From Phymorhynchus buccinoides (Eukaryota; Mollusca; Gastropoda; Neogastropoda; Raphitomidae), in NCBI GenBank assembly GCA_017654935.2, contig CM065682.1:39903569-39967568 (forward strand): a stretch of DNA of 64,000 nucleotides, in the 5' to 3' direction. The position numbers were made by a program, and so were the translations under genes. Position 1 is the stretch's first letter, and each line of letters opens with the position of its first letter. Positions 2,554 through 57,544 of this stretch are shown here, piece by piece. The notes under the pieces were generated by a model. The model worked only from the letters and a program-made list of their open reading frames with translations. It made no database searches and was not told the DNA's origin.

Positions 2554-5500
2554 GGTACCGTCATTAGAGTCTTCAGAGTCCTGACAGGAGAACCTGTCCA
2601 TGAATTCAGGAGAGGCGTGACAAGGTAATAATGGATTCACATTGGCCAGACACACTGATTTCCACACATTAGCAATGTAATACAAAGCATAATGTGTAAC
2701 TAAATATATTAACAACCGAAATAAGCCTTTAATGTGAAATATCAGCATTTGTAAACTAAGTCGTTTGTATGTAGTAACACTAACATATTTATAAAGCAGC
2801 ATAACGCAAATACATTTGAACCTTTGTTACACTAGTCTTGTCATGAACATCTCCATTTTGGATGTGCAGTGGAATAACTTTTCGTTGGACATGAGCAGGA
2901 TTTCAGCTGATGCACTTTGCACTATTAAGAAAGTCTTGCATTTCCAGTTAGTCATTCACAGTTTGCTGGCTTGCATCAGTGTAGTTTGTGCATCAATAAC
3001 CGACAATATAATAGTGGACATATTTCGTTTGTGGTCGACTTATATGTACATAAAGCATGAGTCTGATTTTGTACGCTTTCTCCATTCTTGGACAGTCATA
3101 GCAAAAAAGGGTATGCCAGATATTGTGAAACTTGTCTGTGTCGTGCCGGTTTGCAGGTCAGTGGAAGTGACATCCCTGATTTTCAACAGGGATGACAGTC
3201 TCCTCATACTGGCCAGCAACACGGAGACTGTACATGTCTTTGCCATGAAGAGGTAAGAAGCTATCAGGTAATTGTATTCTTCTTGCTGATAGTGTGTTAT
3301 TCTAAAAACAATACGGCCGTCTCCTGCTACGGCAATTATGAGTACCTCTTAAGCGGTTAATGCGGGTAGTAACATGTAAATGAGCATAAATAGCCAATAT
3401 AATGGGCTGTTTAATCTAATTTACATGTTACTACCCGTGTATACTGTTTCAGACGCAGTCATGATGACTGTTTGCAGACCAAGGGCTGAATGAACCAGCC
3501 TATATTGAGTGCAGTCATGGCTAGGAGTCGATGGCTGCAGGCCCAAAGGCCAATAACTCTAACAATCTATATTCTCCAACAAAAGTTAAGGATCAAATAT
3601 TTTAGAACTAGTTCGTTAAAAAAAAAACATTGAAAAAAACCGTAAATCAAAGATAACTTAGCTGAGACATTTCGTATTTTGGGAATATTTTATTTAACCA
3701 TTATTGAACAAAAGACTGACATTTGATAACGTTCATTTCTGTCATTTAAAAAAAAGCAATAGCAGAAGAAGAATTTGTTGAAGCGTATGTTCGCTGTAAT
3801 TGGAATGTCTTTGTGCAGGCCGAAAGAGGAGGCGGGGTGGGCCAGCTACCTGGGTCTGGGCAGAATGGTGTCCATGGTGGTGGGCGATGTCAGCCAAGAC
3901 AGAGCTTCTGCCGTCGCTTATCTCCCTTCCCCTGTGGGCACAGGAAACGCCTGTGGTATTGTCACGTACGTAGTTCACGTGCTAGGCCCTTTATTCATTT
4001 ACTCAAACGGCTTTCATCATTGGTTGACATGGGCCCCAAGTTTGGGCCAATAGTAAAATGAAAGTTAGTGATATACGAATGATTTTTTACAGTACTGAAA
4101 CAATCAGATTATCTTTGTTCAGCTTAATCTTTTGTGAACGAGTGACTATCAAACCTGTTTTTGTACTGGCTCTTCCATGTTACAGCCTTGTGAATTAGCT
4201 GGCCTTCAGGACCATTCACAATATCAACTGTCCTAAGTCGTTTACGACTGAGCGAGAATGTCTCCAGTGTAAGGCATCTTCACCGTAAACAGATTCTTGT
4301 CCAGCTTTCGAGAATAATGCCTACTCACCTATCTGAAAGACATATAGTAATTTGCACATATTGTGCGTACTTGTGTTGTCTTCTTTACTGATGCATTGAT
4401 GGTGTTTGGAAATATGTGCAATATCACATATCTCGGAGTCTCATAATTATATCTCGATAATATGAAAAGAGGTTATTCACTTAGTTGGGTGGGTTTTTTT
4501 AAAAAGTCAAAGGATCTTGAAATTGAAAATTTTGACAGTTTCTTTTTGCATGTAATCAGTAGGGGTACCTACATGGAGATTAGTTTTCTATTTTAACAGT
4601 TATTCCAGATTAATTATAGTCACACTTATTTAAAGGATAGTTGCGTAAATCGGGCTTAGGTAGTTTTGCTATAACAACTGTAAAAGAACCAATCAAATGG
4701 GTCCTCATCTGCTGTAAAAGTCCTGATCAAATACTTTCAAAATTTGAAATCGTTTTTGATGTAGTTTTGTAAAATTACTCTCGTCTTATTGGTAGTTTGT
4801 GTCACTTATCTAAGCAAACCATAAGAAGTAGTCAATCATCCTATAAACTTGACAATGCGTTTTATTATTAGAAACAAACATGATTATGTTTGTCCCTGTT
4901 TTTCTCATAGCATTGAAGGCAACCCCTACCTGGTGGTTATGGACTTGGAAGGGAACCTGTACATTTACCTCCCACCCTACAACTCAAATGACTGGGCGTG
5001 TCGTCTCCTGGAGCACCACAGGTAACCTACATGTCCTCACAGTAGTGATATCGATGGGTTTCGGCATCTGTTCACAACTCCTACGTGTCTTCGTTTTGGA
5101 ATCATAATATTGCATCGCTATTCACTCTGTTGCCACGTGCTTTCTGAAAGGGCTGTGTTAATCAGACCATAATAGCTAAATGCTCCTTTTGGTTACATGC
5201 TTTGAGATGTACGATAACTTAAAAAAGTATATTCCCTCAAACAAATATGTGATTGCGCTTTATTTTCTTATTAACTACTTTCCTATACACATTCTAATCA
5301 AATATGTTAAATGTGGACTAAGTTAGCAAACAAGTGTCGACAGTATTTTAAAGAATTACACCTGTAAATTTACAATCGAAGGATTGACTGCAGAGACGAC
5401 CATATCTAAGATATGAATGTTATTATTGACCTTTTCAAAACCGAGGTTGAAGGACATACAAATCTTTTGTTCTTGATGCATAGAACACTGGAACTCAAAA

Positions 5501-8500
5501 CACCCACAGCCTATACTTGAATTCTAAACACATTTTGTCGACTCTATACCTTGCATGAATATTTATAAAAACAACGCACATTATAAGGAGCAAATATATG
5601 TTTACATTAGAAACATATTTGTGCACATATAATTTCAAATAAATCCAATGCATGTGAACAATTCATGATGGAAAAAAGGAAACTTTCTCTCTTTTGCTTC
5701 ACTTTAGAAATATTCGGTCTTAATCCCGTTGCCTGTTGTGTGCATTTTATGTTTGGTTTTGCAGAATCCCAACGGGGAAGCAAGAAGAGGCTGCTGCTGA
5801 CGATCTGCCAGACATGCTCAAAGACATGACAGTTGGTGCTGGAACCACGGGTAAGTGGAATGCTAGCTCCTCTCATTTTATAATGTGCTACCAGAACACC
5901 AAAGCACTGGCTTCACTTCAACGACAACGACAATGCTACTTTATGAATAAAACTGAAATGAAGCAACTTTTTGAACTCTCAAGTCTGCATTTTATGATCA
6001 TTTATTAAAGTTATTTAACATACGATGTAACTCTTATTGCTAAACAAAATGTTTATTGTTCATCAAACTTGTCCTTATGTTTATATAAGCAAAGTAATGG
6101 ACACATTGGCTGATCAAGTCACTTCTCAGTTAAAACCCCTTGACTGCCAGAGAAATATTAAAGACAAACTCATTGGGCAAATCATGCCATGAAAAAGACA
6201 ACTGATAGAGCCAATCTGGAAAAAATGGTCTAGGGATATAACTCTCGTGACTGCGTTGGAGCAGAAGACAGCACATGAGGGTTATTCCTCTTCATCTGAT
6301 GACATCATTAGCGATGTCATCAGGTCAGTATGTGATACGTTGGTGGCAGTCAAGGGGCTAATACAATGTACTGAACTGAGAAGAAATGGACACATTTAAT
6401 AAATTAAGAACAGTAACCCTGTATTGTTTAAAAAACCGATATGCAATTGAAAGGTTTTTTACGTAATAAACCCACTGTGCAGCTATGAACTGTGCAGCTA
6501 GAAACTGTGCAGCTATAAATTGTGCAGCTATAAACTATGCAGCTATAAACTGTACAGCTATAAGCTGTACAGCTATAATCTGTGCAGCTATAATCTGTGC
6601 AGCTATACATTGTGAAACTATATATACTGTACAGCTGTAAACTGTTCCACTATAAACTGTGCAGCTATAACCTGTGCCACTATAAACTGTGCAGCTATAA
6701 ACTGTACAGCTATAATCTATGCAGCTATGCATTGTGAAACTATATATACTGTACAGCTGTAAACTGTGCATCTATAAACTGTGCCACTATAAACTGTGCA
6801 GCTATAAACTGTACAGATATAAACTGTGCATCTATAAACTGTGCAGCTATAAACTGTACAGCTATAAAATGTGCAGCTCTAAACTGTACAGCTATAATTG
6901 TGCAGCTATAAACTGTACCGCTATAAAATGTGCAGCTATAAACTGTACAGCTATAACTGTACAGCTATAAACTGTGCAGCTATAACTGTGCAGCTATAAA
7001 CTGTGCAGCTATAAATTATGCAGCTATAAACTGTGCAGCTATGAACTGTGCAGCTATAAACTGTGCAGCTATAAACTGTGCAGTTCCACAACACAAGGTG
7101 CAGGTGAATGAACCAGCTGTCGTGTAAAGTGGTTCTGTTGTACGCACCATTAAACAAAACACGGTTGCTGTTCGTTGTTCACTATTATGTTCTCACTGGT
7201 TTCTTTCTCTCGTTTTATTATTGCATCCAAATTGAGATAATAACAATATATTATGGAGGGGGAAATAATCACAATACAGTCGAACCCTGTCTGTCTGACA
7301 CCCTGATGTTATTGTGCAGACGCCCCTTTAACTGGCAGGGTAGTTTTACTCTTTTCACACTGATATTATTACTCAAATATTCTCCAGAGTAATGGCCTCT
7401 CGCAATTACGGACAACGTTTGGTCAGTCTATTCAATACTCGCTATATTCAGCAGACCAGTTTCGAGTAGTATTCTACTCAATTTGGACCTCTACTACTCT
7501 TCAAAATTGAAAATAATGCTCTAACTACTCATTTTCAGTGAACATTGTTTGATGGTTTAATGAATAAAACTACACATTTTGCACCAAAACTACTCATTTC
7601 AGCTAACCAGACTACTCAAGACTTGTGTAGGTGGGTAAACGGGTCTGATTCAGGTTCGACTGTATTAATTTTTTTCTTGACATAAATATTATGTTAACAG
7701 CCCTAATGTCCCTGTAATCAATACACACTGTATGAACAATGATATAACATCAAACGCATTCTCTCATTTTGAACAGGTTCAGGCTATGCCAAGAGGAAAG
7801 AAGAGCTGGCGGCGAGGGCACGTGCGTATTATGATTCAGCGCCTGTTGCCAAAGCTGCTGCTACCAGTGTCCCTGATTCAGCGCCTGTTGCCAAATCTGC
7901 TGCTACCAGTGTCCCTGATTCAGCGCCTGTTGCCAAATCTGCTGCTACCAGTGTCCCTGATTCAGCGCCTGTTGCCAAATCTGCTGCTACCAGTGTCCCT
8001 GATTCAGCGCCTGTTGCCAAATCTGCTGCTGCCAATGTCCCTGATTCAGTGCCTGTTGCCAAAGCTGCTGCTACCAGTGTCCCTGATTCAGCGCCTGTTG
8101 CCAAATCTGCTGCTGCCAGTGTCCCTGATTCAGCGCCTGTTGCCAAATCTGCTGCTGCCAGTGTCCCTGATTCAGCGCCTGTTGCCAAATCTGCTGCTAC
8201 CAGTGTCCCTGATTCAGCGCCTGTTGCCAAATCTGCTGCTACCAGTGTCCCTGATTCAGCGCCTGTTGCCAAATCTGCTGCTACCAGTGTCCCTGATTCA
8301 GCGCCTGTTGCGAAATCTGCTGCTGTCAGTGTCCCTGATTCTGCGCCTGTTGCAAAATCTACTACTGCCAGTGTCCCTGTTTCAGCACCTAATACCAAAT
8401 CTACATCTGGCAGTGTCCCTGTTTCAGCACCTGATGCAAGATCTACTGCTACCAGTGTCTCTGATGCAGCGCCTGTTGCGAAATCTGCTGCTGTAAGTGT

Positions 8501-8594
8501 CCCTGATTCTGCGCCTGTTGCAAAATGTACTACTGCCAGTGTCCCTGTAACTCTCGTGACTGCGTTGGAGCAGAAGACAGCACATGAGGGTTAA
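2554..8594 (+). CDS. WIPI2-like: PROPPIN (WIPI1/2-like, ATG18 family), 5' partial, with repeat-expanded C-terminus
   Basis: The family binds PI3P and PI(3,5)P2 on early autophagosomal membranes and recruits the ATG16L1 conjugation complex. Six exons are read: 2554-2624, 3157-3252, 3819-3965, 4911-5021, 5765-5850 and 7777-8594, all with AG acceptors and GT donors, joining in frame to about 442 residues. The first exon starts GTVIRVF and holds the FRRG motif (EFRRGVTR), whose two arginines contact the phosphoinositide. The second ends NTETVHVFAMKR, the blade pattern typical of the WIPI1/2 branch. The third and fourth resemble blades 6-7 (CGIVT, then EGNLYIY). The fifth is an acidic linker. The sixth starts with a basic SGYAKRKEEL segment, continues as about 17 repeats of VPDSAPVAKSAATS and ends AHEG-stop. 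Exons for the first half of the propeller were not found between the gap and 2554, so the gene is 5' incomplete here. The paralogue on the - strand has the same intron phases. The repeat tail is unlike known WIPI tails; whether it is translated is inference. Confidence 0.8.
3253..3818. other. Intron of the + strand PROPPIN
   Basis: Donor gtaaga at 3253, acceptor ttgtgcag ending at 3818. A short imperfect inverted repeat (acatgtaaatga near 3370, mirrored near 3420) surrounds the pair gggtagtaacatg / catgttactaccc. No other feature is visible. Confidence 0.6.
3966..4910. other. Intron of the + strand PROPPIN with a degraded dispersed repeat
   Basis: Donor gtacgt, acceptor tttctcatag. At about 4225-4345 it carries a segment similar to 13296-13395 (shared blocks ggcatcttcac, taaacaaattc-like, agaataatgc-like), an old fragment of a dispersed repeat. 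The rest is A/T-rich. Confidence 0.5.
6236..6475 (+). repeat. Duplicated segment, copy 1
   Basis: From aactctcgtgactgcg to the first units of the 15-bp array, this segment is almost identical to 8548-8795. Copy 2 supplies the last codons, the stop and the 3' flank of the repeat-tail exon, while copy 1 lies inside the preceding intron. It contains the small palindrome tgacatcattagcgatgtca. Confidence 0.85.
6468..7085. repeat. 15-bp minisatellite (gtgcagctataaact)n
   Basis: About 40 imperfect units of gtgcagctataaact, with variants gtacagctataaact and gtgccactataaact, in the intron before the repeat-tail exon. Longer-period structure is visible, since the cluster ctatatatactgtacag occurs at about 6618 and again at 6740. 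The small ORFs over it are periodicity artefacts. Confidence 0.9.
7453..7646 (+). mobile_element. MITE-like element, ~190 bp (family with agacctgtttac ends)
   Basis: Copies lie at 44792-44977 (same orientation) and about 30657-30843 (inverted, one end missing). The best copy begins agacctgtttactct and ends gtaaacaggtct, so the termini are inverted repeats. The interior is conserved, with motifs actactcttcaaaattg and gtttgatgg. A fragment of its right end also appears at about 9029-9093 in the duplicated segment. No coding capacity. Confidence 0.75.
7833..8550 (+). repeat. 42-bp coding minisatellite in the PROPPIN tail exon (VPDSAPVAKSAATS)n
   Basis: About 17 tandem units of 42 bp, hence 14 residues. 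The consensus VPDSAPVAKSAATS has mostly conservative replacements (A/T/S at the last positions, and DARST or NTKST near the 3' end). Because 42 is divisible by 3 and the unit lacks stops, all three forward frames and one reverse frame stay open. The frame continuous with the upstream acceptor at 7777 gives the Pro/Ala/Ser-rich, low-complexity version. The 3' units are more diverged than the central ones, as in arrays growing by unequal exchange. Confidence 0.85.
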
Positions 8595-9093
8595 ATTCCT
8601 CTTCATCTGATGACATCATTAGCGATGTCACCAGGTCAGTACGTGATACGTTGGTGGCAGTCAAGGGGCTAATACAATGTACTGAACTGAGAAGAAATGG
8701 ACACATTTAAGGAATTAAGAACAGTAACCCTGTATTGTTTGAAAAACCGATATGCAATTGAAAGGTTTTTTTACGTAATAAACCCACTGTGCAGCTATGA
8801 ACTGTGCAGCTATAAATTGTGCAGCTATAAACTATGCAGCTATAACCTGTACAGCTATAAACTGTACAGCTATAAACTGTACAGTTATAAACTGCAGCTA
8901 TAAACTGTACAGCTATAACTGTACAGCTATAAACTGTGCAGCTATAACTGTGCAGCTATCAACTGTGCAGCTATAAACTGTGCAGCTATAAATTATGCAG
9001 CTATAAACTGTACAGCTATAAACTGTGCAGACTACTCAAGACTTGTGTAGGGGGTAGACGGGTCTGATTCAGGTTCGACTGTATTAATAATTT
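8548..9093 (+). repeat. Duplicated segment, copy 2 (with 15-bp minisatellite 8787-9028)
   Basis: A shortened second copy of the 6236-7690 segment. It has the aactctcgtgactgcg block, about 16 units of the gtgcagctataaact array, then the end of the MITE (gactactcaagacttgtg) and the ggttcgactgtatt block, running directly into a second 42-bp array at 9094. The order matches the intron-to-exon order of copy 1, indicating a tandem duplication of intron end plus tail exon. Confidence 0.85.
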
Positions 9094-10783
9094 TTTCCCA
9101 AATCTGCTGCTGCCAGTGTCCTTGATTCAGCGCCTGTTGCCATAGCTGCTGCTACCAGTGTCCCTGATTCAGCGCCTGTTGCGGAATCTACTGCTACCAG
9201 TGTCCCTGATTCAGCGCCTGTTGCCGCCCAAATCTGCTGCTACCAGTGTCCCTGATTCAGCGCCTGTTGCGGAATCTACTGCTACCAGTGTCCCTGATTC
9301 AGCGCCTGTTGCCAAAGCTGCTGCTACCAGTGCCCCTGATTCAGCGCCTGTTGCGGAATCTACTGCTACCAGTGTCCCTGATTCAGCGCCTGTTGCCAAA
9401 GCTGCTGCTACCAGTGGTCCTGATTCAGCGCCTGCTGCGGAATCTACTGCTACCAGTGTCCCTGATTCAGCGCCTGTTGCCAAATCTGCTGCTACCAGTG
9501 TCCCTGATTCAGCGCCTTTTGCGGAATCTACTGCTACCAGTGTCCCTGATTCTGCGCCTGTTGCCAAATCTACTGCTACCAGTGTCACTGATTCTACGCC
9601 TGTTGCCAAATCTGCTGCTGCCAGTGTCCCCGATTCAGCGCTTGTTGCGAAATCTACTGCTGCCAGTGTCCCTGATTCAGTGCCTGTTGCGACATCTACT
9701 GCTGCCAGTGTCCCTGATTCAGCGCCTGTTGCGAAATCTCCATCTGGCAGTGTCCCTGATTCAGCACCTGATGCAAGATCTACTGCTGCCAGTGTCCCTG
9801 TTTCAAGGTCCATGTACAAATTTCCCACTGCCGGTGTCCCTGTTTCAAGGTCGATGTTCAAATTGCCCTCTGCCAGTGTCCCTGATTCAGCGTCCGTTTT
9901 GAAATCTTCTGCTGCCGATGTCCCTCGTCTTGCCCACACTGCTCACGGTGTATATGCCCCCACTTTTCCCAGTATCCCTACGCCTGCCCACACTTTTACA
10001 GGTATCCCTCTACCTGCCCACAATGTTCCAGGTATCCCTCTACCTGCTGACACTTTTCCAGGCATTCCTCTACCGTCCCACACTTATGCAGGAATCCCTC
10101 TTCACAATGTCCCTGTTTCTGCCCACACTGTTCACAATGTCCCTGTTTCTGCCCACACTGTTCCCAGTGACCCCGTTTCTACCCACACTGTTCCGAGGGT
10201 CCCTGTTTCTGCCCACGCTTTTCCTGGTGTCCCTGTTTCTGGCCACACTGTTCCCAGTGTCCCTGATTCTGCCCACACCGTTTCCAGTGTCCCTGATTCT
10301 GCCCACACCATTTCCAGTGTCCCTGATTCTGCCCGCACTGTTTCTATTGTCCCTGATTCTGCCCACACTGTTCCCAGTGTCCCTGATTCTGCCCACACCA
10401 TTTCCAGTGTCCCTGATTCTGCCCACACTGTTCCCAGTGTCCCTGATTCTGCCCACACTGTTCCCAGTGTCCCTGATTCTGCCCACACTGTTTCCAGTGT
10501 CCCTGATTCTGCCCACACTGTTTCCAGTGTCCCTGATTCTGCCCACACTTTTTCTAGTGTCCCTGATTCTGCCCACGCTGTTCTCAATGTCCCTGATTCT
10601 GCCCACACTGTTCCCAGTGTCCCTGATGCTGCCCACAGTTCCCAGTGTCCCTGATTCTGCCCACGCTGTTTCCAGTGTCCCTGATGCTGCCCACAGCGCT
10701 TCCAGTATCCCTGATTCTGCCCACACTGTTCCCAGTGTCCCTGATGCTACCCACACTGTTCCCAGCAACTCATTTAAGCCCTC
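9094..10783 (+). CDS. Second repeat-tail array, possibly coding (VPDSAPVAES... then VPDSAHTVSS...)
   Basis: This array is open for 498 codons (9158-10654) in the frame that spells VPDSAP. About 17 units of 42 bp (9094-9815, with AES/AKS alternation and a 28-codon-like mixed higher order) give way to a degenerate zone with VPVSRSM and IPLPAH motifs, and then to about 22 units of 30 bp (10 residues, VPDSAHTVSS) up to 10783. Near 10640 a 2-bp loss (cacagttccc against cacactgttccc) shifts the frame; another frame then continues to a stop at 10832. No acceptor like the one at 7777 precedes it. A splice using the ctgctgccag of the first unit is possible but unproven. It may be an alternative tail exon, a pseudogenised duplicate, or repeats only. 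Confidence 0.4.
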
Positions 10784-30379: not shown

Positions 30380-33300
30380 CTGAAGGTAAAAAAACACAAG
30401 AGCAAGATGCAAATAAGCGCTGTTGGCAATCTTTTTTTGCGTTGGATTGTTTCCATGTAAAATTATTCAGGTTAAGTGTGGTCCATGGGGGATATTCACG
30501 TTCACGTATTTCAAATACTGTTAACATTACAGGGAAAGCAGAGATACTAAAATACATTATTGTCCTGCTCTGTATCTAACAAACCACCAATTAAAGTGAC
30601 GATTAAACAGTCAGTACAGATTACTCAATTGCTTAAAATAATATGATTTTCCTAACGCAGTCTTGAGTAGTCTGGATAGCTGAAATGAGTAGTTTTTGGT
30701 GTGAAATGAGTAGTCCTCTTCATTAAACCATCAAATAATGTTCACTGAAAATGAGTAATAAGAGCATTATTTTCAATTTTGAAGAGTAGTACAGGTCCAA
30801 ATTGAGTAGAATACTACTCGAAAAGAGTAGAGTAAACAGGTCTGCTAACGGTTTTACGTACCCTGATCACATGATGACAAAGTCGTGGTCATACCATGCA
30901 TTTACTCAACCCTATGGCTTGTTTTAAGTGACGCCTTTATGTGTATATATTTTTTACTATTAAATTACAGTCAAACTTCTATTTTAAGACTGCCAAAAGG
31001 TCAGAAAAAATCAGTCTTAAATTGGAGGGAGTCTTTTAACGGTGTCTTATAGTAAAGGTTTGACTGTCTAAACATTTTTGTTTCTTGTTTATGCTCGTAT
31101 CTAAATGTTTGTGTGCATTCATTTTACTGCCTAGTGTTATTTTTTTTTATACGTTGTAATGGAAAACATTGTTTTATGAACATTTTTGTTTCAGATAAAT
31201 GACCCCCCCACCCCCTTTTCATTTAGTTTCAGTTTGCGGAAAAAAATAATTCCAACATGTCCTGAGATTTATTGAAACCCAAATTGGCAAGATGCAGAAC
31301 TATGGCTATAAAATTCATATTCCAACATTCAACAAAGCGTATAAAGTCTTAAATGGAATGGTAAGGCAATCCCTATGGATTTACTTTGAACGTCTTAGTA
31401 CATTACCCGGTAATCAATTTGATGTGCCCCCGTCTCTACGTGTCACCTGTCATCGTGCCCCCATCTCTATATATCCTAGTCTCTATGTGTCCCCGTCTCC
31501 GTGTGTCCCTGTCTTTATGCGTCCCCTCGGATTAGGGACAGGGTTAGAGTTAGGGACACGGTTAGAGTTAGGGATAGGATTCGGATTTCTGGTTATGGGT
31601 AGGAATAGGGTTTCAGATGTTGTTGATGCCGTACCCTGGCTAAAAGACTCCAGGGATCATCCCCATCAGCCGAAGCACTTGAACACTGTGCAGTGTGGTA
31701 TACAAATACACCAAGGGATGAAAACATTTACGTGTGTGACCGTTTTTTAAATTATCCGCCACGTTGGCAGCCACACTCCGACTTCGGAGGATAGGGTTTC
31801 AGATTATTTTTCTTCTTCTTCTTCTTGGATCGCCCAGTCAGTTTCCTGTCAATTATGAGCGGATATGCGTCATGCTGCCATTATGCGCCTAACTAAAAAA
31901 ATAGTTAGGCCCACCAAGACAGACTTCGGCTGTAGGAAATCTTTTTGAAAGTGTTTCTTGAAAGAAAGAAACAAGCAGAATGGACCGGAAAGGTAGAAAG
32001 ATAGTAGATGACAGTAAGCAGACAAACAGCTACAGATTAGAGGAAGTTACAAGCACAGACCTTCCAGAAGGTGGGGGAACTATTTATGCAAAAGAATCCC
32101 AGTATTCCCACAGGGTGGTGGTGGGTTAGATTAGGTTCAGGGTTTGGATTCGGTTTCAGTGTCACATGCAGACAGACAGATGTGTGGCGGGAACATCTAC
32201 AGGGTTCCCAGGGCTTTCAGCTATCCCCAAGTAAGGACCTTGTAAGGACCTGTAGGCCTAAGGATAATGTCCATCTTTTAGCCAACGATCTTGAAAGGAA
32301 CACTTTCCCAGCATTGTGAACAATGTCTAAGCAAGATACAAAAACTATGGCTGACACAGATATACACGTTTTCTCGCAAAACGTCACCAGGATAAAGAAC
32401 GAGATTTCAGTCCAATTTCTCTTGACAACTCGCGGTGCATCGTTCGTCTGCTAAGCGGTCAGTTGAAACGGGAAGGTGGGGGAGGGGGGTAAGGTGGAGT
32501 AGGTGCTGAGCGATGTTTCTCAAGTGTAAAAGTGCTGCTTCTGCGATCTATTTTGATGGTCTTGCTGCTCAGGGCAGTTTTGGGCAGCTGTCAGGACTTG
32601 TAAGGACCTTGAAGTGAATGTAAGCACTTGTAAGGCCTTACTTGGAGATTTCAATTGGTCAAGACTTATAAGGACTGGTAAGGCCCCTATGAACCTTGAT
32701 CTAGAGACAAGGACACGTGCTGACACAACTGGTGACACGTAGAGACAATGCTACATAACCCCTTACTTGTGACTCTCCAGGCATCGGCATTTCCACGATT
32801 CGGCAGTTGTATTTGGTGGAAGGTCGAAAAGAAACAGCTCAGCAGTCTGATGGACAACACCGAGAAGGTATTCCCTTCTTGCGATGCTGAAATGGAAAGA
32901 AAAACCAGTTGTTGGATAGGAAATCGTAATGTGATGACTACTGAAATAGAATTTAGCTGCAATGATAGCCCTGCTGTAATTGAATTAAAAAGTACCAACA
33001 CAGTGTACAAACGTTCCTGTGTAGAAAAACAGAATAATCACCAAGTACTTTAATTAAAATCAATGTAGTGTTCAGTGTGATCAGTAAAATGACAAGCACG
33101 TTATACACAAAAATAAATTTGGGAAAACAGTATGAGCTAAATGTAACCCAAATAAGCCTATGAGATCAGAAAAGGGGGGATTCTGGGTTTGAAGAAGGCT
33201 CTTACTTTCACTGCATACTTGCACACTATAAGTCTAGATATATTCATTGCATTAATTTTTAAGGAAAATAAAGGGACTTTGTGAATCCTGTTTTAAACAA

Positions 33301-34031: not shown

Positions 34032-34876
34032 GGCGAGACTCCTCCCCCCCCCCTCTCTCTCTCTTTATCCCCAACTAAGAATATAGAGAGGATTAGCCCC
34101 ACTCGAGTGCTTATGCCACCTGGCGGTCAAAAGAGCCAGCTAAGCCGCTCGTTGCAGATCAGACATGAACGTACGTAACAATTCCACAGGTTTTGGTGGT
34201 GCCCTCGGGGCCAGGGACAGAAGCGGTGGCCACAGCCCTGTCCCCCAGCACCTTGGTGCCAACCAGGCCGTCCACCCAGCTGCTGACCGTGTTGTAGAAC
34301 GTGTCCAGCCACCCCACTTCCTTGGGCCTGCATGCAAAACAGTGGTGTAACAAATACCAGACACTAAGCGTCAGAATCACCTGAAGTCCTACCCCCCTGA
34401 AACCTGCTGCAAAGAGCCCACCAAAAGCGGCTGACTGTATGTAAAAGGCATAGGCATTGTCTATCTCCCCCATTGGGAGAAAAAAGTAAATCAGCACATT
34501 ATTTTCTTTTCTTCTTTTCAGAACACAGAACAAATCGTAAAGTTAAAGTTATAGTAATTGAGTTTGTTTCTTAGGTTCACAAACACATACATTGGACACA
34601 CAAAAAGTTTTATTAAAGCAAACTATATATATATATATACATAAGAGGAAAGTTTAATGGTGTGTTTGTTTTTTTCTTCTTCAATTCTTGATCATGTATG
34701 TAAAAGGGTCAGACAAATCCTCTGCCAGCACTTCTCTCATAAACTTCAAATCTGCAAATCCGCTGACAATTATGATGCTGTCGACAGCTCTGCGAGGAGA
34801 TACGTCTGAAGGAGAGCTCGTTTTATTGTTACTTCAAAGCTAGATTCCTGGGGTCGTACTCACCAACAAGCATATA

Positions 34877-34936
<60 letters not shown>

Positions 34937-37900
34937 TTTTTGGTTAAACTAACTGTACACCACCAATACCTCACATGTAAAAAAACAAGGGACATAATTT
35001 TGGGTTTCAGTATGACAAGCATAGACGGGGGTGATTATTTTGGTTCAACTGTACGCCATCAATACCTCACATATTAAAAAAGGGAGATATTTTTTGGGCT
35101 GCAGTATGACAATGTACATAGACTTTTTTGTGTATTTTGTTAATTCTGGGGGGTCTTCGTGAGAATATAACACGTGTGTTCTTTATGTTATTATAGAACT
35201 AAAGAAACCAAACAAATTTAACGACCCCCCAAAATAACAGAGCCTATATCTGCATTAGAACATAATTTAAAAGGTCTATTCAGGGTCTTACCACCATATA
35301 TTTATCATGTAGTTCAAATTCAAATTATTGCACATGAAATGTTGCACTCTTCATCAACAAACATTAACAAGCTTACACTAATTTACACTAAATTACCATA
35401 TTTCGGTGGTATTATTTGGTGTAAGGTCAAATATGAACACTTCAGCTGACCAGAAGATATTGCCTGTTTTCGATGCTGACATTGATAAAATATTATATGT
35501 CACATTCAATCTGTCCAAATATTAGACATATTCTTTGACACATACATAACTTGATAAGACAAACCTACATTATATCTCATTCAAATCTACTTCAGGGCAC
35601 ACCACAACCAATATTATCAATAATGAGATGCAAATTTCTAACTTACTTGGGAGTGGGAAATACATGGAGACAGGTTGCTACATACTTGGAATTGGGAGTG
35701 GGAAATATGTGGACTGTCTCCACGTTGCTACTTACTTGGAATTGGGAGTGGGAAATACGTGGACTGTCTCCACGTTGCTACTTACTTGGGAGTGGGAAAT
35801 ACGTGGACTGTCTCCACGTTGCTACTTACTTGATATTGGGAGTGGGAAATACGTGGACTGTCTCCACGTTGCTACTTACTTGGACTGTCTCCACGTTGTT
35901 ACTTACTTGGACTGTCTCCACGTTGCTACTTACTTTGGAGTGGGAATTACGTGGACTGTCTCCACGTTGTTACTTACTTGGGAGTGGGAAATACGTGGAC
36001 TGTCTCTACGTTGCTACTTACTTGGGAGTGGGAAATACGTGGACTGTCTCTACGTTGTTACTTACTTGGGAGTGGGAAATACGTGGACTGTCTCTACGTT
36101 GCTACTTACTTGGGAGTGGGAAATACGTGGACTGTCTCTACGTTGTTACTTACTTGGGAGTGGGAATTACGTGGACTGTCTCCACGTTGTTACTTACTTG
36201 GGAGTGGGAAATACGTGGACTGTCTCTACGTTGTTACTTACTTGGGAGTGGGAAATACGTGGACTGTCTCCACGTTGCTACTTACTTTGGAGTGGGAATT
36301 ACGTGGACTGTCTCCACGTTGCTACTTACTTGGGAGTGGGAAATACGTGGACTGTCTCTACGTTGCTACTTACTTGGGAGGGAGTGGGAAATACGTGGAC
36401 TGTCTCTACGTTGCTACTTACTTGGGAGGGAGTGGGGAATACGTGGACTGTCTCCACGTTGCTACTTACTTGGGAGTGGGAAATACGTGGACTGTCTCCA
36501 CGTTGCTACTTACTTGGGAGGGAGTGGGAAATACGTGGACTGTCTCTACGTTGCTACTTACTTGGGAGGGAGTGGGGAATACGTGGACTGTCTCCACGTT
36601 GCTACTTACTTGGGAGTGGGAAATACGTGGACTGTCTCCACGTTGCTACTTACTTGGAATTGGGAAATACATGGACTGTCTCCACGTTGCTACTTACTTG
36701 GAAGTGGAGAAAACGTGGACTGTCTCCATGTTGCTGGCCAACAACAGGTAGCTGTCGTCCCTGTTGAAGGCCAGACAAGTGACGTCCACCCTCCTGCAAT
36801 ACATCACATGATTACAATCAATATGTGGATGGCGATACAACAACAGGTAACTGTCGTCTCTGTTGAAGGCCAGGCAAGTGACGTCCACCCTCCTGCAATG
36901 CATCACATGATTACAATCAATGTGGATGGCGATACAACAGGTAACTGTCGTCCCTGTTGAAGGCCAGACAAGTGACGTCCACCCTCCTGCAATGCATCAC
37001 ATGATTACAATCAATGTGGATGGCAATACAACAGGTAACTGTCGTCTCTGTTGAAGGCCAGACAAGTGACGTCCACCCTCCTGCAATGCATCACATGATT
37101 ACAATCAATGTGGATGGCGATACAACAGGTAACTGTCGTCCCTGTTGAAGGCCAGGCAAGTCACGTCCACCCTCCTGCAATACATCACATGATTACAATC
37201 AGGGTTCGTACAGCAGTTTCATGATCAAATTCTCTAACATTTCCCTGACTTTCCCTGACCCTTCCAGTCACCGTGTACCACACATATACAGTGTAACTGG
37301 CAAACAAAAACAACTTACCAGTAGACTTAACTTACCCTACATGACAGCTGATCAACCCAGCAATACACAGATATAGAGGCAGTGTCCTTCATTGCTCCTC
37401 AGCAACACAGACGAAATTGTAATGCCGGTAAGGCCGATTGATCGCAAAGATCACCAACAAGCATTTTTAAATTATGTTCTGTATTTTTATCTCTTATTTT
37501 TCAACCCATGATATTTTTAAGCGCTGATTATCTTTTTGATGTGCATAAAGATCAAATTCCCTGACTTTGAGCAGAAATTTTATTTTCCATGACTTTTAAG
37601 TGACTGGAAAACATTTTTTCTAAATTCCCAGTTTTCCCTTACGCGTACGAACCCTGTACAATAAATATGTGGATGCAATGGCGATACTATTCTCGTATAA
37701 GGGGATCATCAATGATGATAAATATTAATAACATGGGGGGGAGAGCAAAACATTTCAGCGATACTGAAACATTTTTAAGCTATACTGAAAAAGAAAGCAA
37801 GGATATCTTTAAATGTTCCAGTCGGAGAGAATTGCTGTACTGAATTCAGTATCTATACTGAAGATCTCCCACCCCTGTAATAATCATTTGGTATATAATA

Positions 37901-38815
37901 TAATACACAGCGCTTGCACAGTTGAAATTTTACATGCGTACAAGATCATTTTCATCTCCTTATCCCTCGTCTAAATTCGTGGGTGCATTTTCCACTCACT
38001 ACGTTGTGCACCCTGATCAATGTAACCTGTAACATACTATAATATCATCAATGATGAGTACTCATTTGGTATGTTATATACACAGAGCTTTCTCGTATAA
38101 AGATCATCAATGATAATAAATATTGCTCATTTGCTGAACGCCATTGCGGCAATGGCGGACTCGTGCGCCTGGATGGTCACAGGCTTTTGCTGCACATCAT
38201 TCAACATGGTCATAAACAATTAGTACATTTTAATTTCCTCTGATGTATTTTAACTTGTCCACTCGATACTACATCACCACATGCATGTCTACACGATCAT
38301 TTCACAGTTAAACTTTTACAGGCGTACAATATCATTTTAATTTCCTTACCTCACCATCCCACGTCTGAATTCGTGGATGCAATTCCCACCCACGCTGTGC
38401 ACCCTGATCAATGTAGCCTGAAACAAAACAATGCAATTCGTGATAAGACGAACAATAAAACATTAATACAGTCAAGCATAAGAAAGGTATGCTACTGAAA
38501 ACATAGCTTTCCTGAGCGTCACGCTCTCTTTTACTTATTCAGCGTGGTCTGACGGGTGAATGGTGGGTCCGTGCATGCCACCAAAAGGCTGCATTCACAT
38601 TGCACCTCCTATCAATCAATGAAATCAATTTATCGTCTTCAAACAGAAGCAATTTGTTGCCCACAATAAATAAATAATAAAAACATTTCATTAACTGGTC
38701 AGTTACACATCATACATTGAAGAAGACAATTCTACACAAACAAAAGGCCGGCACAAGTAGATAACATGGAAACAATGAAAGTTAACAGGAACAGCGCGCG
38801 CGCACGCGCACACGC

Positions 38816-38860
<45 letters not shown>

Positions 38861-40217
38861 GTAAGTTAAAACTAATAAAGATAGCCTAGTTAAATGCACT
38901 ATTCATAATTAAAAGCAAACTGAGTATGCATGAAATATATGATAATTACCATTTGTAACCTAATCAACATACATTGAGAATATTAAGACAGACAAAGAGA
39001 ACAGAAAGAGAGAAAAAGACATCTTTCCCTTCTTGGCGGGGGTAGAAAAGTGAAAAATAAGTAAAAAGACGGTTTTTAATAATGTTTAATAAAACAGGTG
39101 TGTGCACTGTGTGTAAGCTTTTATTTTTGTTTGTGGCACAAGCCACAAACCTATAACTCACTTTGTCGGTCTGTCGGTCCAAAATTGTTGCACGCCACAA
39201 ACGATTGCGAATCCGCGCTTGTTACAGTAATACTTCACCAAACTTTATATTGAATGAACAAGCGCGGATTCGCAATCGTTTGTGGCGTGCGACAATTTGG
39301 GACCGACCGACCGACCAACAGACCGACAAAATATACACACCTTTAGGTTTAATTTTATGGAGCCTACCTTTTCGGAAGCAGTGGCGATGCAATCTGCACT
39401 GTTGCTGAACGCCATTGCAGCAATGGCGGACTCATGCGCCTGGATGATCACAGGCTTTTGCTGCACATTGTTCAACAGGGTCATAAACAATTAGTTAATA
39501 GTATATACACCAGCGCAACGCCGAGTACCGGTAACGGTAACGCCAAGTACTGGTCAACGCTGAGTACAGCAAATTTGAAGCGATTCGGTTAAGAAACAGC
39601 GGAGTTATAAGGCCCCATGTCCCGTTGGCGCAGCTCTGAGAGTGACGCTCTCTCCCGATTCTCTTCAAATTTGCTGCCAGGCTTTGCCCCTGCCACAGCA
39701 AGCCTGATGGCAAATTTAAAGCCATTCAGTTACACAACGGCGGAGTTATTTGTGAAAAGGTGAAGCGGCGTATATCGCGCGCGTTTCTACATCGATTCGT
39801 TTCCGGTTTGGCACATCGATAGTCACCGTCCCCGGTCATCTACCTGTCAAATTGGGAGGCAATCGGTCCAGAAATACCGGAGATACGGGCGCCGAGAGGC
39901 CGGTGGATACGCGTTTCGCGCATTTGCCAAACCGCGTAAATGACACGACCGCCTCGGTTGCCGTTGCCATCGCCCCGTTAGGGCTCATAGCAAATTTGAA
40001 GCGATTCGGTCGAAAAACGGCGGAATTATAAGGCCCGTTTTGTGTTTCACACACACACACTTGCCTTTTTATTATATGATTTTAATTTTCGGTAAAGGTC
40101 AAGATGTGCCCCCCCCCCTACATTTATGGGTTAATTCCATTTTTGCCTTTCTTGCCAAACATAAAGCTGTATTTTAGGAACCTTTTCAGCTAATTATCTT
40201 TTTGGAATAATAACCTT

Positions 40218-40248
<31 letters not shown>

Positions 40249-43200
40249 ATAAGAAGGAAAAACGCAATGAACCACAAGGGTAGGGTTAGGGTTATTATTG
40301 CAAAAAGATAATTAGTTGAAAAGGTTCATAAAATACAGCTTTATGTTTGGTAAGAAAGGCAAAAACGGAAAAATGGAATTAACCGAGAAATGCAGGGGGG
40401 TGGCACATCTTTACCTTTGCCACAAACTATATTGAAATATCACAAAGGACACCGTTAATAAGCTGACAGATAGTAGGGTGATTCCGTTGGATTTACATAA
40501 TTAAATGAATCTAAACGGCCTAAGTAGCCATATCTCTGTAGAGACTGCAAACAACGTAACAGTAGTAAAACACACAAACCAGACCGCTTACTCTACTGAC
40601 AGTAGTAGTGTGAGTGAAACCCATGGATGCTATACTTAGATTCTTAAAGTAGCGTCCGTGGTGAAACCAGATGCTAAAGATCCACTGACCCAGCAGATTT
40701 AAACCCCTTGTTTTTTTCTGGGTGGGTGTGACCCACATACAAATTCCCCTAGCTCAAACTTATTCTGATCTTCAAAGTCTCAGTTTGGGGGCATTTGCAT
40801 GGGCATTTGTATTTGCATGGGACTTAAACCTGGTCAAAATAAGATTTCTTACCAGAGAGAGAGAGAGAAAACCGTGAAACCCGTGATTTTCACTCATCAG
40901 TCATGGATCCACCACCCTCGGCAGGCACCTAAAATGGTAAATGGTAGGGAGAGATGCCAGCTAAATGTGGCTTTGAAGACCCACCAGATCACGTGTCAAA
41001 ATCACGGGTTTCACGTGTTTTCCCTCTTTTAGCTGGTAAGAAATCTTGTTTTGACCAGGTTTGACTCCCATACAAAATGCCCCCAAATTGAAAACGAAAC
41101 ATCATTTTAAAGAGCAGCCTCAATTTGAAGTTGCGAAATTTGACGCGTTTCGGTTGAAAACCGGCGGAACTATAAGGCCCGTTTTGCATCATGCTGCTAT
41201 TATGCGCCTAAGTAATCGATTCGCTTCCGGTTTGACACAGCGATAGTCACCGTCCCCGGTCATGTACCTGCCAAATTTGAAGGCAATCGGTCCAGCAATA
41301 CCGGAGATACGGGCGCCGAAAGGCCGGCGGATGCGCGTTTCGCGCATTTGCAAAACCGCGCAAATGACACGGCCGCCTCGGTTGCCATTGCCATCACCCA
41401 GTTAAGGCTCACAGCAAATTTGAAGCGATTCGGTAAAAAAAAAAACGGCGGAGTTATAAGGCCCGTTTCGTGTTTCAGACACACACACACACACACGGAC
41501 ACTTGCTAAATTACTATATGATTTATTACTACAGTACGTAGAAATGGCGCCATTTTACCTTATTTAAGGCTACCCACTCACCGTCCAGACCGTGCCTACA
41601 AGCGTGATGCACCCACTCTCGTTATCGATGGGATAGGCCAGTGTTGCAGTCCTTGGGCACAGAGCCATGACAGGAGAGTCCAGTGTCTTCGGGCGTATCG
41701 TGCTCTGCACATCCAGTTGCTCGTTCAGGATGTCGATGCTATCATTGAAGCAGAGCACCAGACGCTGGAAAACAACAGAGATGGGTCCGTAAAGAATAGT
41801 AGAATACTCGACTATCGTTTGTATATTACACAAGCTCATTGATCGTGGGCCCTCAAGAGAAGAAGAGATGGTACTTAAAAACAAAGAACACAATGCTAGA
41901 CATTGCGAGCTTTCTATTTATTTTAAATCTTCCCCAGGCAACATTGTGATCGACTGCACTAACAAACCAAGCACAAACAGGTTATAACATTGATTTCACC
42001 AGAGCTTCGTATTGACGGTGGGCTTACCCTTCATTTTGTGAACCCATGAAGTTTGTAACAAAATTTAAGTGTAATACTACAGTGACACATTATTGGCCCA
42101 TTATTTTGGAAATTGACCCATCATTTTCTGTAAGCAGGGGTCATATGACCCATGAAGTTTGAAAACAATCTGAAGCTCTGTTTAACTACTACTTGCATGT
42201 GATTTAAGAGAGAAAAAACAAGAATGAAGTTCACTCATTTACCTTGAAAAGAATTAACTCATGCACTTTTATGAACAGAACGGGATTTCCAAACTTAAAA
42301 CAAACACTGTGCATACAGAGAAAAAAATGGAACTGCCAAACTATCATGTGTATTTTAGGCACACGCCTCAGTTTTTCACCTACAGTAACTGAGAAGCAGC
42401 ATTTAGCCTTTTAAAGGAATGAAATAATGTTAGGATCAGCCTAAGATTGTTTCCACAAAATTAAAAGAAAAGATTTTGATATTGAGGGTCGTAAATATGG
42501 AGGAGTGTCTAATACACCTTTGTCGAATAATCATACAGGTTTTAAAAAATAGATACAGAAATGTATGTTGAAAACAAAGACAAAATGGCCACATTTTTAC
42601 AAGTCAAAGGAAATGGACATGGTCAATGCAATATGGAATATACATCACATCAAACTCACAACATAGCACATTCCTATGGCAAGCATATTTATCATTGAAC
42701 ACTCAAATCAAAGGCTTTAACGTTTACTTTAGTAAGTTATATTTCACCCAAATCAGAAAATGGTGCATGACGTGAAATAAATATTAATCATATTCACACT
42801 CGAACCAAATGTAGAAATTCTCTATCTTGATTTCATACACGATCCTGTGACTTGAGTGAATTCATCTACAAGTCAAGCGTTTGCACATTTGTTTTATTTA
42901 TTAAACCACACACAAACTGGTTTAGAAATCGAAAATGTCAAAGGAAAATATAAGTGTCTCACTCTCTTCATGACACACTTGCGCATTCACCCACACAGGC
43001 AAACATACATATATGCACACATATACACTTACAAAAGCACACTCATATACCTAGAAAACAAACCAAGAGAAAGGGAATGACTCAAAAATGAAATATTACC
43101 CAAATCAATTTTTAAAAAAGAAAGAAGAAAATTTGATCTTAAGTCTTTGAGCTACAAACTTAGAATAAATTTGAAACTCAATATACCTGTAAACTATAAA

Positions 43201-53985: not shown

Positions 53986-56900
53986 TAATAAATAAGTTTA
54001 CCAATTTGTAAATTTGGGAGAGACCAAGGGGAAACAAAACAATAATTTTTCCATAGTACAACATGAACTGTGAATCAGCCAGTATAGCACAATTCGTACA
54101 CGTTTCTGATATACAGACAGTATTGCTTTTTTAAAATTTCAATACTACTAGTGCTAATAAATAAGATAAATAAATAAATAGTTAAATAAAATAAATACAA
54201 ACATGACTTAAAACCTGTTGGTTTCGGAAATATATTCATGGACAGTTTCAAATATCAAAATGTTTGTATTAATGTGTAGTGTAGGGTTACCCTTGAGAAG
54301 TGTTTCGACAATACAATATTCTATTAGAAGTGTTGAAATTGTACGAGCACGGGCTCCATTAAAGAGAATACAATGTAACAAGTAATGCTCCACCGTCTCC
54401 GCCCCGTTACCACAAGCACAAAAAGGGTCATCGACTAGATGTCGATTAAACATATCATTCTTTAAGTCGCTCATGCCAAGACGGAGACGGCAGTGCATCA
54501 CTTGCTGTTCCCTCTTGCCAAGATAGAAATGAGGCGGTACAACAGGATCATCTGCCGACAAGTAACGCTTAATTGTACTTAAAGAGTTGCATGTTTTAAT
54601 ATCGTTTGGCAAAGAGTTCCACAGGAGCGTTGTAGATGGGACAAATGACTTTTTATATAATTCTGTTTTGCATCTAGGCACATTTCTTTCTAAGAGTCTT
54701 CGTCTATGGTATGGGTTTCTGTCTGCAACAAGGCCAGGTAGAATGTTTGTTAAATAATCAGGGCACATACCATTTATAATTTTATAATAAAAAATAATTT
54801 TATGTCTTTCTCTTCTTTTCTTTAATGAACAAAAGCCAGATTCTTCATGTAACTTTTGATGACTTGTTCCACGAACTGCTCCAACAATTGTTCTTATGGC
54901 TTCTAAGTGTAATTCTTCAAGTGAATTTGATTGTGTTTCAGTACAGTTATCCCAGACGACATCAGCATAATCAAAGTAAGGTAGTACAAAAGATTTATAC
55001 ATTCTTTCTAAAGCTTTTCGGCTAATTCTATACTTATAACTTTTCATGCAAGAGAGAAGCATGGTGACTTTGTTAACGATACTGCGTATATGCTCGTCCC
55101 ATTTACAGTTATTTTGGAGCACAAGTCCTAAGTGTTTATGTTTGTCAGTATCGTGTAATTGAACAGTTCCAAAAGTAAGGGGAAGAACGACATTATTTCC
55201 GCGTACAAAATTAAGCAGTTCAGTTTTTTCTTCACTAAATTTAACTTTCCAATGCATGGCCCAACTGTTGATCTTTAATAAGTCAGCATTAATCATTTCT
55301 GTACGAGTAACATAGTTATTGAGTGATAGGGACATGCTGGTGTCGTCAGCGAAAAGTTTAACGTTAGATGCTATGCCATTAACTATATCATTTATATAAA
55401 TAAGAAACAAAAGTGGTCCGAGAACAGAACCTTGTGGAACCCCTGCTGGGATCTTTATATAATCAGATTTTTCACCCTTGATTACTACTGCCTGATAACG
55501 GTTTGATAGATAATCGGTAAACCAAGCTAGTAATTTCCCACGAATACCAATTCCATTAAGTTTACAGATGAGGCCTTTATGCCAAACACGGTCAAAGGCT
55601 TTAGAAATGTCAAAATACACTGCTTGAGTTGTAACACCACTGTCAAATGAAGAACACAAATCATTATAAATACACAACAATTGATTGACAGTGGATTCAC
55701 CAGTAATAAAGCCAGATTGTGAGGGAGAGATGATATTATTTGACATAAGAAAATTGTAAACATATTTATGGATGCATCTCTCCAGTGCTTTTCCAACACA
55801 ACTCAACAATGAAATTGGTCGATAATTATTGCAAATATGTTTAGATTCTTTTTTATGTAAGGGGCTTACGTGAGCTAATTTCCAGGCACCAGGAAATTTA
55901 CCTTCGGCCAAGCTCCTATTAAAAATGAAAGTCAAAGGATAAAGTATTACAGGGAGAGCTGAGATTAATAATCTATTATGAATCAAATCAGGCCCAACTG
56001 CCTTGTTTGTGTTAAGATTCTCAATAACAGTCTTCACATCAGTAAGTGTTAAGGACATTTCAGGAATAAGGTAAGGAACATCTGGAACGTCGTCATTACT
56101 ATTTTCTAATGTGGATTGGGCTATGAAGAATGCATTGAAAACATTGGCTTTTTCTTTATTATTATAGTGTACTGTACCCTCATGAAGAATGGGTGGGATC
56201 TCATTTGACTCAATTCCTTTTTTGTTTAAAAAGGATTTAACAAGTTTCCACCATTCCTTGTTACCAAAGTTAGTGGAATTAGAAACCTTATTATCCAGTT
56301 CACTTATATAATCTTGTTGTCTTTGCCTTTCTTTAGACGTTACATAATTTCGGAACTGACGAAAAGTGTTCCAGTCATTTGGATCATTAGTCTGTTTGGC
56401 TACATTGTGAATGGCTATGCGCTCCTCAATCAACAGTCTGATCTCGTCTGTCATCCAAGGCACGTCATTCGGACGAATAGTGACAGTCTTAGTTGGCATA
56501 CATAGTTTAGCTTTTTCCATAACTATTTCTGAAAACATTGCCACACTTTCATCCAAAGACCTGCCCAGGATGACATTGTCCCAGTCTACATTATCTAACA
56601 AGTCACAGAAACGCAGTGTGTCTAACTTATTATAAACATATATTGTTCTTTTATATGGCTTATTTTTAGTTATATAGTTTTTAACAATAACACAAGGAAC
56701 GCTGTGGTCACTGCAAACTGCAGGCAAAACGTTTTTAGAGGTCACAAAATTAGGACACTGCGTGAGGATCAAATCCAAACAAGTCTTACTTGTGTCAGTA
56801 ATCCTTGTGGGTGTGTCGATTAATTGAGTTAGGTGATATCGGTTAATAATTTCAAGTAGATGAAGTGATGGATTGGTTAGGAAATCAGTATTAAAATCTC

Positions 56901-57420
56901 CAAGAATGATAAACTTTAATGAAGTGCTGTTAACTTTGTGGATGCTTTCATCAATCAGTTTCCAATAGTTAATATTGGAACTTGGGGGTCTATAGAAAGA
57001 TCCAATTAAGAAGCTTGTTTGGTCAAGTTTAGTCTCAACCCAAACAGCTTCCAAGTTGTCAACGTGGAGATCAGGGCGAGGTTTACAGACTAGATTATTT
57101 TTTACATATATAGCAACACCACCATGAGGATCATTTGGTCTATCACATCTGACAGGTGGGTGGAAATTGGACATAGTTATAGAGTTGTTGCTAACAGAAG
57201 GTGACAACCATGTTTCTGATACAGTGATAATATCAAATTTGTTGTATTCTGCTTCGAAAATGTCCATTTTGTTTCTGATACTGCTAATATTTACGTGAAT
57301 AATTCCAAGATCAGAGTTAGAATTGGGACCGGGGTTAAGTTCACTTGAGTAAATAAACAAAAATATTGCCTTAAAAAAGGAGTATAAGCTCACCCACCCC
57401 TTTGCACAAATTGAGGTGAT
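53715..57420 (-). mobile_element. CR1/jockey-group LINE, 5' incomplete, with intact EN-RT ORF
   Basis: One insertion comprising the ORF at 54208-57393 and a ~490-bp 3' UTR with an (AAT)n tract at 53911-53995 and aataaag near its end (- strand). The 3' end shares a sequence with 2041-2375. The 5' boundary is uncertain: the reading frame opens at a TAG near 57469 without an ATG, and a GT microsatellite follows at 57545. No ORF1 is visible. No target-site duplication could be fixed by eye. Confidence 0.85.
54208..57393 (-). CDS. LINE endonuclease-reverse transcriptase, 1061 codons, uninterrupted
   Basis: The protein nicks target DNA and copies its own RNA into it (target-primed reverse transcription). 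Order of domains: a hydrophobic stretch ending SSELNPGP (about residues 15-24), APE-type endonuclease with SETWLS (~58), GDFNTDF (~163) and SDHSVP (~225), then reverse transcriptase with NNYRPISLL (~520), motif A YFDISKAFDRVWH (~591), GVPQGSVLGP (~650) and the catalytic FADD (~678), and a C-terminal Cys/His segment (CACGNG...VEHYLLHC). NPGP at that place recalls the ribosome-skipping 2A motif of some CR1-like and ingi elements, but the usual D-x-E is degenerate (SSE). The first codon in the frame start given here is GTG; a true ATG start is not seen, suggesting that the 5' part (ORF1 or the start) is missing. No stop or frameshift breaks the frame, so the insertion is young. Confidence 0.9.
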   Translation of the reverse strand: MSLYSFFKAIFLFIYSSELNPGPNSNSDLGIIHVNISSIRNKMDIFEAEYNKFDIITVSETWLSPSVSNNSITMSNFHPPVRCDRPNDPHGGVAIYVKNNLVCKPRPDLHVDNLEAVWVETKLDQTSFLIGSFYRPPSSNINYWKLIDESIHKVNSTSLKFIILGDFNTDFLTNPSLHLLEIINRYHLTQLIDTPTRITDTSKTCLDLILTQCPNFVTSKNVLPAVCSDHSVPCVIVKNYITKNKPYKRTIYVYNKLDTLRFCDLLDNVDWDNVILGRSLDESVAMFSEIVMEKAKLCMPTKTVTIRPNDVPWMTDEIRLLIEERIAIHNVAKQTNDPNDWNTFRQFRNYVTSKERQRQQDYISELDNKVSNSTNFGNKEWWKLVKSFLNKKGIESNEIPPILHEGTVHYNNKEKANVFNAFFIAQSTLENSNDDVPDVPYLIPEMSLTLTDVKTVIENLNTNKAVGPDLIHNRLLISALPVILYPLTFIFNRSLAEGKFPGAWKLAHVSPLHKKESKHICNNYRPISLLSCVGKALERCIHKYVYNFLMSNNIISPSQSGFITGESTVNQLLCIYNDLCSSFDSGVTTQAVYFDISKAFDRVWHKGLICKLNGIGIRGKLLAWFTDYLSNRYQAVVIKGEKSDYIKIPAGVPQGSVLGPLLFLIYINDIVNGIASNVKLFADDTSMSLSLNNYVTRTEMINADLLKINSWAMHWKVKFSEEKTELLNFVRGNNVVLPLTFGTVQLHDTDKHKHLGLVLQNNCKWDEHIRSIVNKVTMLLSCMKSYKYRISRKALERMYKSFVLPYFDYADVVWDNCTETQSNSLEELHLEAIRTIVGAVRGTSHQKLHEESGFCSLKKRRERHKIIFYYKIINGMCPDYLTNILPGLVADRNPYHRRRLLERNVPRCKTELYKKSFVPSTTLLWNSLPNDIKTCNSLSTIKRYLSADDPVVPPHFYLGKREQQVMHCRLRLGMSDLKNDMFNRHLVDDPFCACGNGAETVEHYLLHCILFNGARARTISTLLIEYCIVETLLKGNPTLHINTNILIFETVHEYISETNRF

Positions 57421-57544
57421 GTTTGAAGTGACAGCTGTTTGCCATGTGCAATGAATTGGCTATAATTTGCTTTTTCCCTGATAAATTCGAAAGAAGCAAA
57501 GAATAGGGACGACGGACAGAAAAAGGAAAGAAGGCTTAAATCAT

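Follow-up and report, generated by a model that had tools for sequence, protein, structure and literature searches.

Exon 8 of a minus-strand gene of the gastropod Phymorhynchus buccinoides (gene B), which is predicted to encode a PROPPIN (WIPI-like) protein, is bracketed by two arrays of splice sites, with five acceptors on its upstream side and 25 donors on its downstream side. We consider it probable (roughly three chances in four) that this is a neutral double mirage, the term being that used for the repeated exon boundaries of amphioxus discussed below, which is spliced mainly at the innermost acceptor-donor pair and in which use of the decoy sites is predicted to be unproductive. All coordinates are positions in the window, by which we mean the whole 64,000-nt stretch of P. 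buccinoides DNA that was analysed (CM065682.1, 39,903,569 to 39,967,568).

TRF delimited the donor array at 35692-36735, with a score of 1513, a period of 44 bp, and 22.9 copies. Read along the minus strand, the sequence between 36697 and 35646 offers 25 donor-like sites, 24 of them GTAAGT and one GTATGT (35685). The earliest in transcript order is the genuine GTAAGT donor of exon 8 (36692..36697, minus strand), its position being set by a second gene of the family in the window, paralog A. The 24 additional sites (23 GTAAGT and the GTATGT at 35685) lie in 24 repeat units at 35641..36691 (minus strand), and the final one (35646) bears the downstream intron flank. In the window, the sequence CAAGTAAGT has 22 minus-strand occurrences, every one inside the donor array, versus 0 plus-strand occurrences, and the array is therefore not a product of chance. 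A preliminary description had recognised a 5' splice site within a minisatellite and some 23 extra donors, and both statements are supported by the TRF array and the donor-like sites, with 23 intact GTAAGT extras or 24 if GTATGT is counted.

The same description gave each unit a length of 44 bp, which applies to 14 of the 24 intron units, the others measuring 48 bp (four units), 50 bp (three), 27 bp (two), and 39 bp (one). The 44-bp unit includes coding sequence of exon 8 and the adjoining intron, so that the repeat spans the exon-intron boundary. The further claim that every unit repeats the same exon codons and consensus donor fits 17 of the 25 donor-like sites, which read AAGTAAGTAGC, while six read AAGTAAGTAAC, one reads AAGTATGTAGC, and the last reads AAGTAAGTTAG; it does not fit the two 27-bp units, which are without the second half of the exon tail. 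The last eight columns of the unit (AAGTAAGT) contain a single variant cell across 24 units. Selection on the repeated donor motif was considered and dropped, other stretches of the unit being nearly as constant.

Directly upstream of the donor array, and absent from the preliminary description, lies a second array identified with TRF (36741..37201, minus strand), in which a 94-bp segment running from the last part of intron 7 across the acceptor and through the first half of exon 8 is present five times. The exon-like starts are at 37174, 37080, 36986, and 36892 for the decoys and at 36793 for the genuine exon (spacings of 94, 94, 94, and 99). A stretch of about 455 bp with inverted ends (37197-37656; AGGGTTCGTAC) seems to break the upstream edge of the 94-bp array, and this is also seen in the second copy of the locus described below.

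Six exons of gene B, all with GT/AG borders, were located on the minus strand, and a single open frame runs through exons 5-10; the numbers follow the designation of exon 8 in the preliminary description, and none was located before 5 or after 10. They are the exon numbered 5 (41582..41764, 183 nt), exon 6 (39368..39460, 93 nt), exon 7 (38350..38417, 68 nt, with intact acceptor and donor), the genuine exon 8 (36698..36793, 96 nt), whose final ~38 nt resemble a source copy of the 44-bp unit, exon 9 (34175..34327, 153 nt), the skipping of which, like that of exon 8, would keep the frame, and exon 10 (32767..32886, 120 nt). The protein joined from exons 5-10 matched the Pfam PROPPIN model with 90.8 bits (cut-off 30; E-value 1.2e-25), and exon 7 closes with HEFRRGMVR, the FRRG of which we take to be the lipid-binding motif of the PROPPIN (WIPI/Atg18) family. 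A homologue search of a large protein collection yielded 652 candidates, none of them at E <= 0.001, and the window had no Rfam match above the gathering score. Intron 7 also contains decayed tandem copies (37956..38189, minus strand), recognised by similarity, of exon 6 (truncated, with an in-frame TGA) and of exon 7 (donor GT lost); the coexistence of an intact exon 7 with a decayed copy nearby was counted in favour of gene B being held as coding sequence. Elsewhere in the window, a 1083-aa open frame (54208-57459, minus strand) resembles a retrotransposon reverse transcriptase by eye.

Paralog A (2555-5021, plus strand) served as an internal control, as its exon 8 (3157..3252) has no array. 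This exon is also 96 nt long and has the same codon phase at the junction with exon 9, and because length and end phase are identical the first donor of gene B is identified as the genuine one, as the preliminary description had proposed. Over the 139 codons of exons 7-10 the two paralogs differ with a dN of 0.45 versus a dS of 1.44, and both are therefore maintained as coding sequence.

Little in the local sequence separates the true sites from the decoys. In a simple duplex computation with the 5' end of U1, the true donor and 22 of the 24 extra donors had the same energy of -7.2 kcal/mol (exceptions: -4.0 at 35685 and -5.6 at 35646), so that scoring each unit against the true site, a check suggested beforehand, came out as anticipated. 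The five other donors of gene B gave -10.5, -9.2, and -10.1 (exons 5, 6, and 7), -1.5, and -5.0 kcal/mol. Because 23 of the 558 other GTs in gene B also scored -7.2 or lower, the decoys are unexceptional as isolated U1 sites, and their strength, which is below that of the donors of exons 5-7, is to be understood as relative. What distinguishes the decoys is the exon-like sequence preceding many of them. Concealment of the decoys by RNA structure was considered and not seen, since predicted folding leaves the donors more open than their surroundings (median unpaired probability of the donor 11-mer 0.148 versus 0.008 for the segment). The pyrimidine content is 0.50 at all five acceptors, true and decoy alike, and such pyrimidine-poor acceptors may cause exon 8 to be poorly recognised. 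As local sequence barely separates true from decoy, the discriminator would be position, and the choice among the sites is likely made by position and not by local sequence.

All 125 combinations of an acceptor with a donor (5 x 25) were spliced in silico to the flanking exons, and two of them remained open, namely the genuine pair (96 nt) and the nearest decoy acceptor (36892) combined with the genuine donor, which gives an exon of 195 nt with 33 additional codons. The genuine acceptor with any of the 24 extra donors led to the same TAA immediately past the true exon end, which bears out in 24 of 24 cases the expectation that each downstream donor would add a stop and places that stop at one shared codon. 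Since this codon is shared by all extra donors, transcripts using a decoy donor are likely unproductive.

The genome assembly (2.12 Gb, 3962 contigs) contains the locus a second time, at a distance of about 55 kb and in inverted orientation, and the inverted similarity ends near a gap of 500 N. Positions 1-950 of the window correspond to 17053-16140, and 17621-46444 correspond to a neighbouring stretch of the contig. This large inverted duplication is either an unremoved haplotype or a real duplication; among the WD40 matches listed for the genome, several with equal scores lie near one another in either orientation, a pattern compatible with haplotypes left in the assembly. The second copy has 24 donors (23 GTAAGT; one unrelated GTATGT 101 nt past the array is excluded) versus 25 in the window, and both copies have five acceptors with spacings of 94, 94, 94, and 99. 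Mismatches between the copies numbered 125/14218 outside features, 10/920 in the donor array, 1/408 in the acceptor array, and 5/234 in the relic exons. In the exons there were 2/707 versus 6.2 expected (one-sided P = 0.053), which weakly suggests purifying selection between the two copies. When the unit types were mapped, the distal half of the donor array had the same order in both copies while the part near the exon differed, as if the array turned over adjacent to the coding exon; the 24 versus 25 donors and the changed order near the exon are what is expected of a minisatellite that turns over. The sole difference within exon 8 is at 36729 (minus strand), where the window encodes Met and the second copy Val, the latter having the base of the array units; both conversion by the array and a new mutation in the window copy could account for it.

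The protein search of the genome returned 68 exon matches, the majority on the same contig, where the PROPPIN-like genes have undergone a local expansion. Exons 7-10 of paralog A are identical in three further copies on this contig, with ~94-97% identity in the surrounding alignments. For exon 8 the sample of other family loci comprised paralog A and 10 further loci, and a TRF array within 60 nt of the exon was found at 0 of these 11 loci, which are not independent cases because some are near-identical. Both arrays were present at 2 of 2 B-type loci.

Repeats at splice boundaries were also looked for in a wider sample of 20 loci taken from the 150 WD40 matches listed, one of them with N in part of its sequence. 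At 8 of the 20 loci, an array of period 10 or more lay within 150 nt of the WD40 match, counting L038, to which a laxer test was applied as it spans several matches. An extra copy of a predicted acceptor (5) or donor (4) was found at 6 of the 20 loci, a figure to be taken as rough because the boundaries were picked by a simple score; tried on the six exons of gene B as controls, this score went wrong in three, misplacing both ends of exons 6 and 7 and the acceptor of exon 8. The clearest repeats were those of L045 (three acceptors 60 bp apart, 475-641), the acceptors of L034 (168 bp, 340-662) and L050 (154 bp, 293-676), and the L033 donor. Both ends of L034 may be repeated; its donor is doubtful, as are the donor of L050 and the repeats at L032 and L039. 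Local repeats were not significantly enriched at the splice boundaries of this sample (9/40 versus 679/4422 flank positions, P = 0.15), and no special targeting of splice sites was thus seen. This speaks more for a genome rich in local duplication than for a mechanism directed at splice sites. A genome-wide count of AAGTAAGT occurring three times at 20-50 nt intervals gave 942 forward and 719 reverse hits; the pattern written backwards, used as a control, gave 6588 and 6546. Among the places listed, many are simple repeats. Several arrays of 15, 30, and 42 bp with long open frames, e.g., 502 aa at 9146-10654, occur at 7832-10765 (plus strand) of the window itself.

The 2.12-Gb genome in which gene B is found is far larger than that of amphioxus, in which mirages were named, and belongs to another lineage. 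The preliminary description knew of no comparable case; this is contradicted by the amphioxus mirages (PMC3087553) and by a VNTR in human ABCA7 (PMC5954066). Mirages are minisatellite-like repeats over intron-exon boundaries, at either exon end (PMC3087553; PMC3902484), with splice signals in many units and unstable length (PMC3087553), and are reported for Adh3, the globins BflGb6 and BflGb9, TnC, and PGBD5 (PMC3087553; PMC3902484). Regular splicing is described there as undisturbed and normal by RT-PCR (PMC3087553). Gene B likewise has splice signals throughout, with GTAAGT at 24 and GTATGT at one of the 25 donor sites and AG at all five acceptors. In the amphioxus globin clusters, units of 150-160 bp occur 3 and 6 times, whereas gene B has 25 donor and 5 acceptor sites. 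Both boundaries of one exon are arrayed in gene B, and in amphioxus PGBD5, too, repeats are described at 5' as well as 3' splice sites; within the portions of the literature consulted, no single exon with arrays on both sides was found. A narrow literature search yielded no report of repeated splice boundaries in molluscs, and nothing directly usable was found in the literature on competition between equal donors.

In the ABCA7 study, the unit of the intron-18 VNTR starts at the exon-18 donor GT; the human reference has 23.7 copies, and people carry about 12 to 427 (PMC5954066). Gene B resembles it in that about two dozen tandem donor GTs stand right past the exon, that every unit gives a donor of which the earliest is genuine, and that moving to the next donor changes the reading frame. 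Two frameshifting events close to the VNTR are given as 14 +/- 6% and 2 +/- 1%, the second apparently a retention of one unit, and a longer VNTR is associated with more exon-19 skipping and lower expression (PMC5954066). The ABCA7 unit is 25 bp long and starts with GT, whereas that of gene B is mostly 44 bp and includes ~36 nt of exon tail; the available portion of the study describes no acceptor array, which gene B has, and it offers RNA and population data, whereas gene B is known here from the sequence of one genome. Internal tandem repeats at exon-intron boundaries of recently duplicated genes in human segmental duplications (PMC2812944) are minisatellites placed as in gene B, but they comprise on average 4 copies of a 30-bp unit and are associated with new introns, and no new intron is proposed for gene B.

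Under the neutral double mirage, the exon-8 tail and its GTAAGT donor would have been repeated head to tail, likely by slippage or unequal exchange. The spliceosome is predicted to stay mainly with the first donor, and exon definition would favour the shortest exon, of 96 nt. Where an extra donor were joined with the true acceptor, the shared TAA would be included and the transcripts would likely be degraded or truncated; by analogy with ABCA7, more copies may then mean slightly less product. The array looks like something that frequent local duplication in the genome has left behind and that is tolerated, and a function need not be assumed for it. This neutral reading is supported by the finding that splice boundaries elsewhere in the genome are repeated too (the 6 of 20 WD40 loci).

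That decoy exons hold introns back is a known idea, and it speaks for the alternative that the array is a regulator, its decoys engaging U1 snRNP without productive splicing or supplying a poison extension, and its length determining how much intron 8 is retained or how much productive mRNA is made. Splicing decoys and decoy exons are like the sites of gene B in being non-productive sites that could compete with true ones, whereas the known decoys are whole decoy exons or cryptic sites and those of gene B are lone donors or lone acceptors in tandem. The single stop reached from all 24 extra donors, their predicted accessibility, and the fall of ABCA7 expression and rise of exon-19 skipping with VNTR length (PMC5954066) would agree with regulation. 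We nevertheless think it unlikely, given that the donor motif does not clearly stand out in constancy from other parts of the unit, that the 11 other family loci have no array, and that local repeats are not significantly enriched at the splice boundaries sampled.

It is highly improbable that the arrays serve to make alternative proteins, notably a long exon 8 with 33 additional codons from the acceptor at 36892 and the true donor: that pair is in frame and stop-free and its 99-nt spacing is the same in both copies, but only 2 of the 125 pairs are open and none of these uses an extra donor. Decay of gene B into a pseudogene, with nothing keeping its splice sites clean, would find a place for the decayed exon 6 and 7 copies in intron 7, the absence of any exon found before the one numbered 5, and the weak reduction of exon mismatches between the copies (P = 0.053). 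Against this stand the six exons found, all open and with GT/AG borders, the PROPPIN match (E-value 1.2e-25), and a dN of about a third of dS relative to paralog A, and we judge such decay to be quite improbable. The notion that the donor array is an assembly artefact is barely credible. The 500-N gap in the window, the inverted second copy on a neighbouring piece, and possible unremoved haplotypes could raise this suspicion, but both copies are arrayed, with many distinct unit types in a largely common order and counts of 25 and 24, and collapse or looping of repeats would not yield a shared order together with different counts.

A bolder form of the positional argument, which we regard as doubtful though possible, is that, between two independent arrays whose sites are nearly all locally equivalent, one pair of the 125 is picked by position alone and that, with every wrong donor leading to the same stop, the length of the array acts as a rheostat of output. 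If the choice were indeed by position only, the locus would constitute a natural test of an 'innermost pair' rule of exon definition. Since true and false sites have nearly the same letters, measuring donor use would separate the effects of position from those of sequence in a natural gene. The findings also suggest that mirage-like repeats are common in a further genome, and a large one; such repeats of splice boundaries could lead gene prediction astray there and could make splicing vary between individuals, as in ABCA7.
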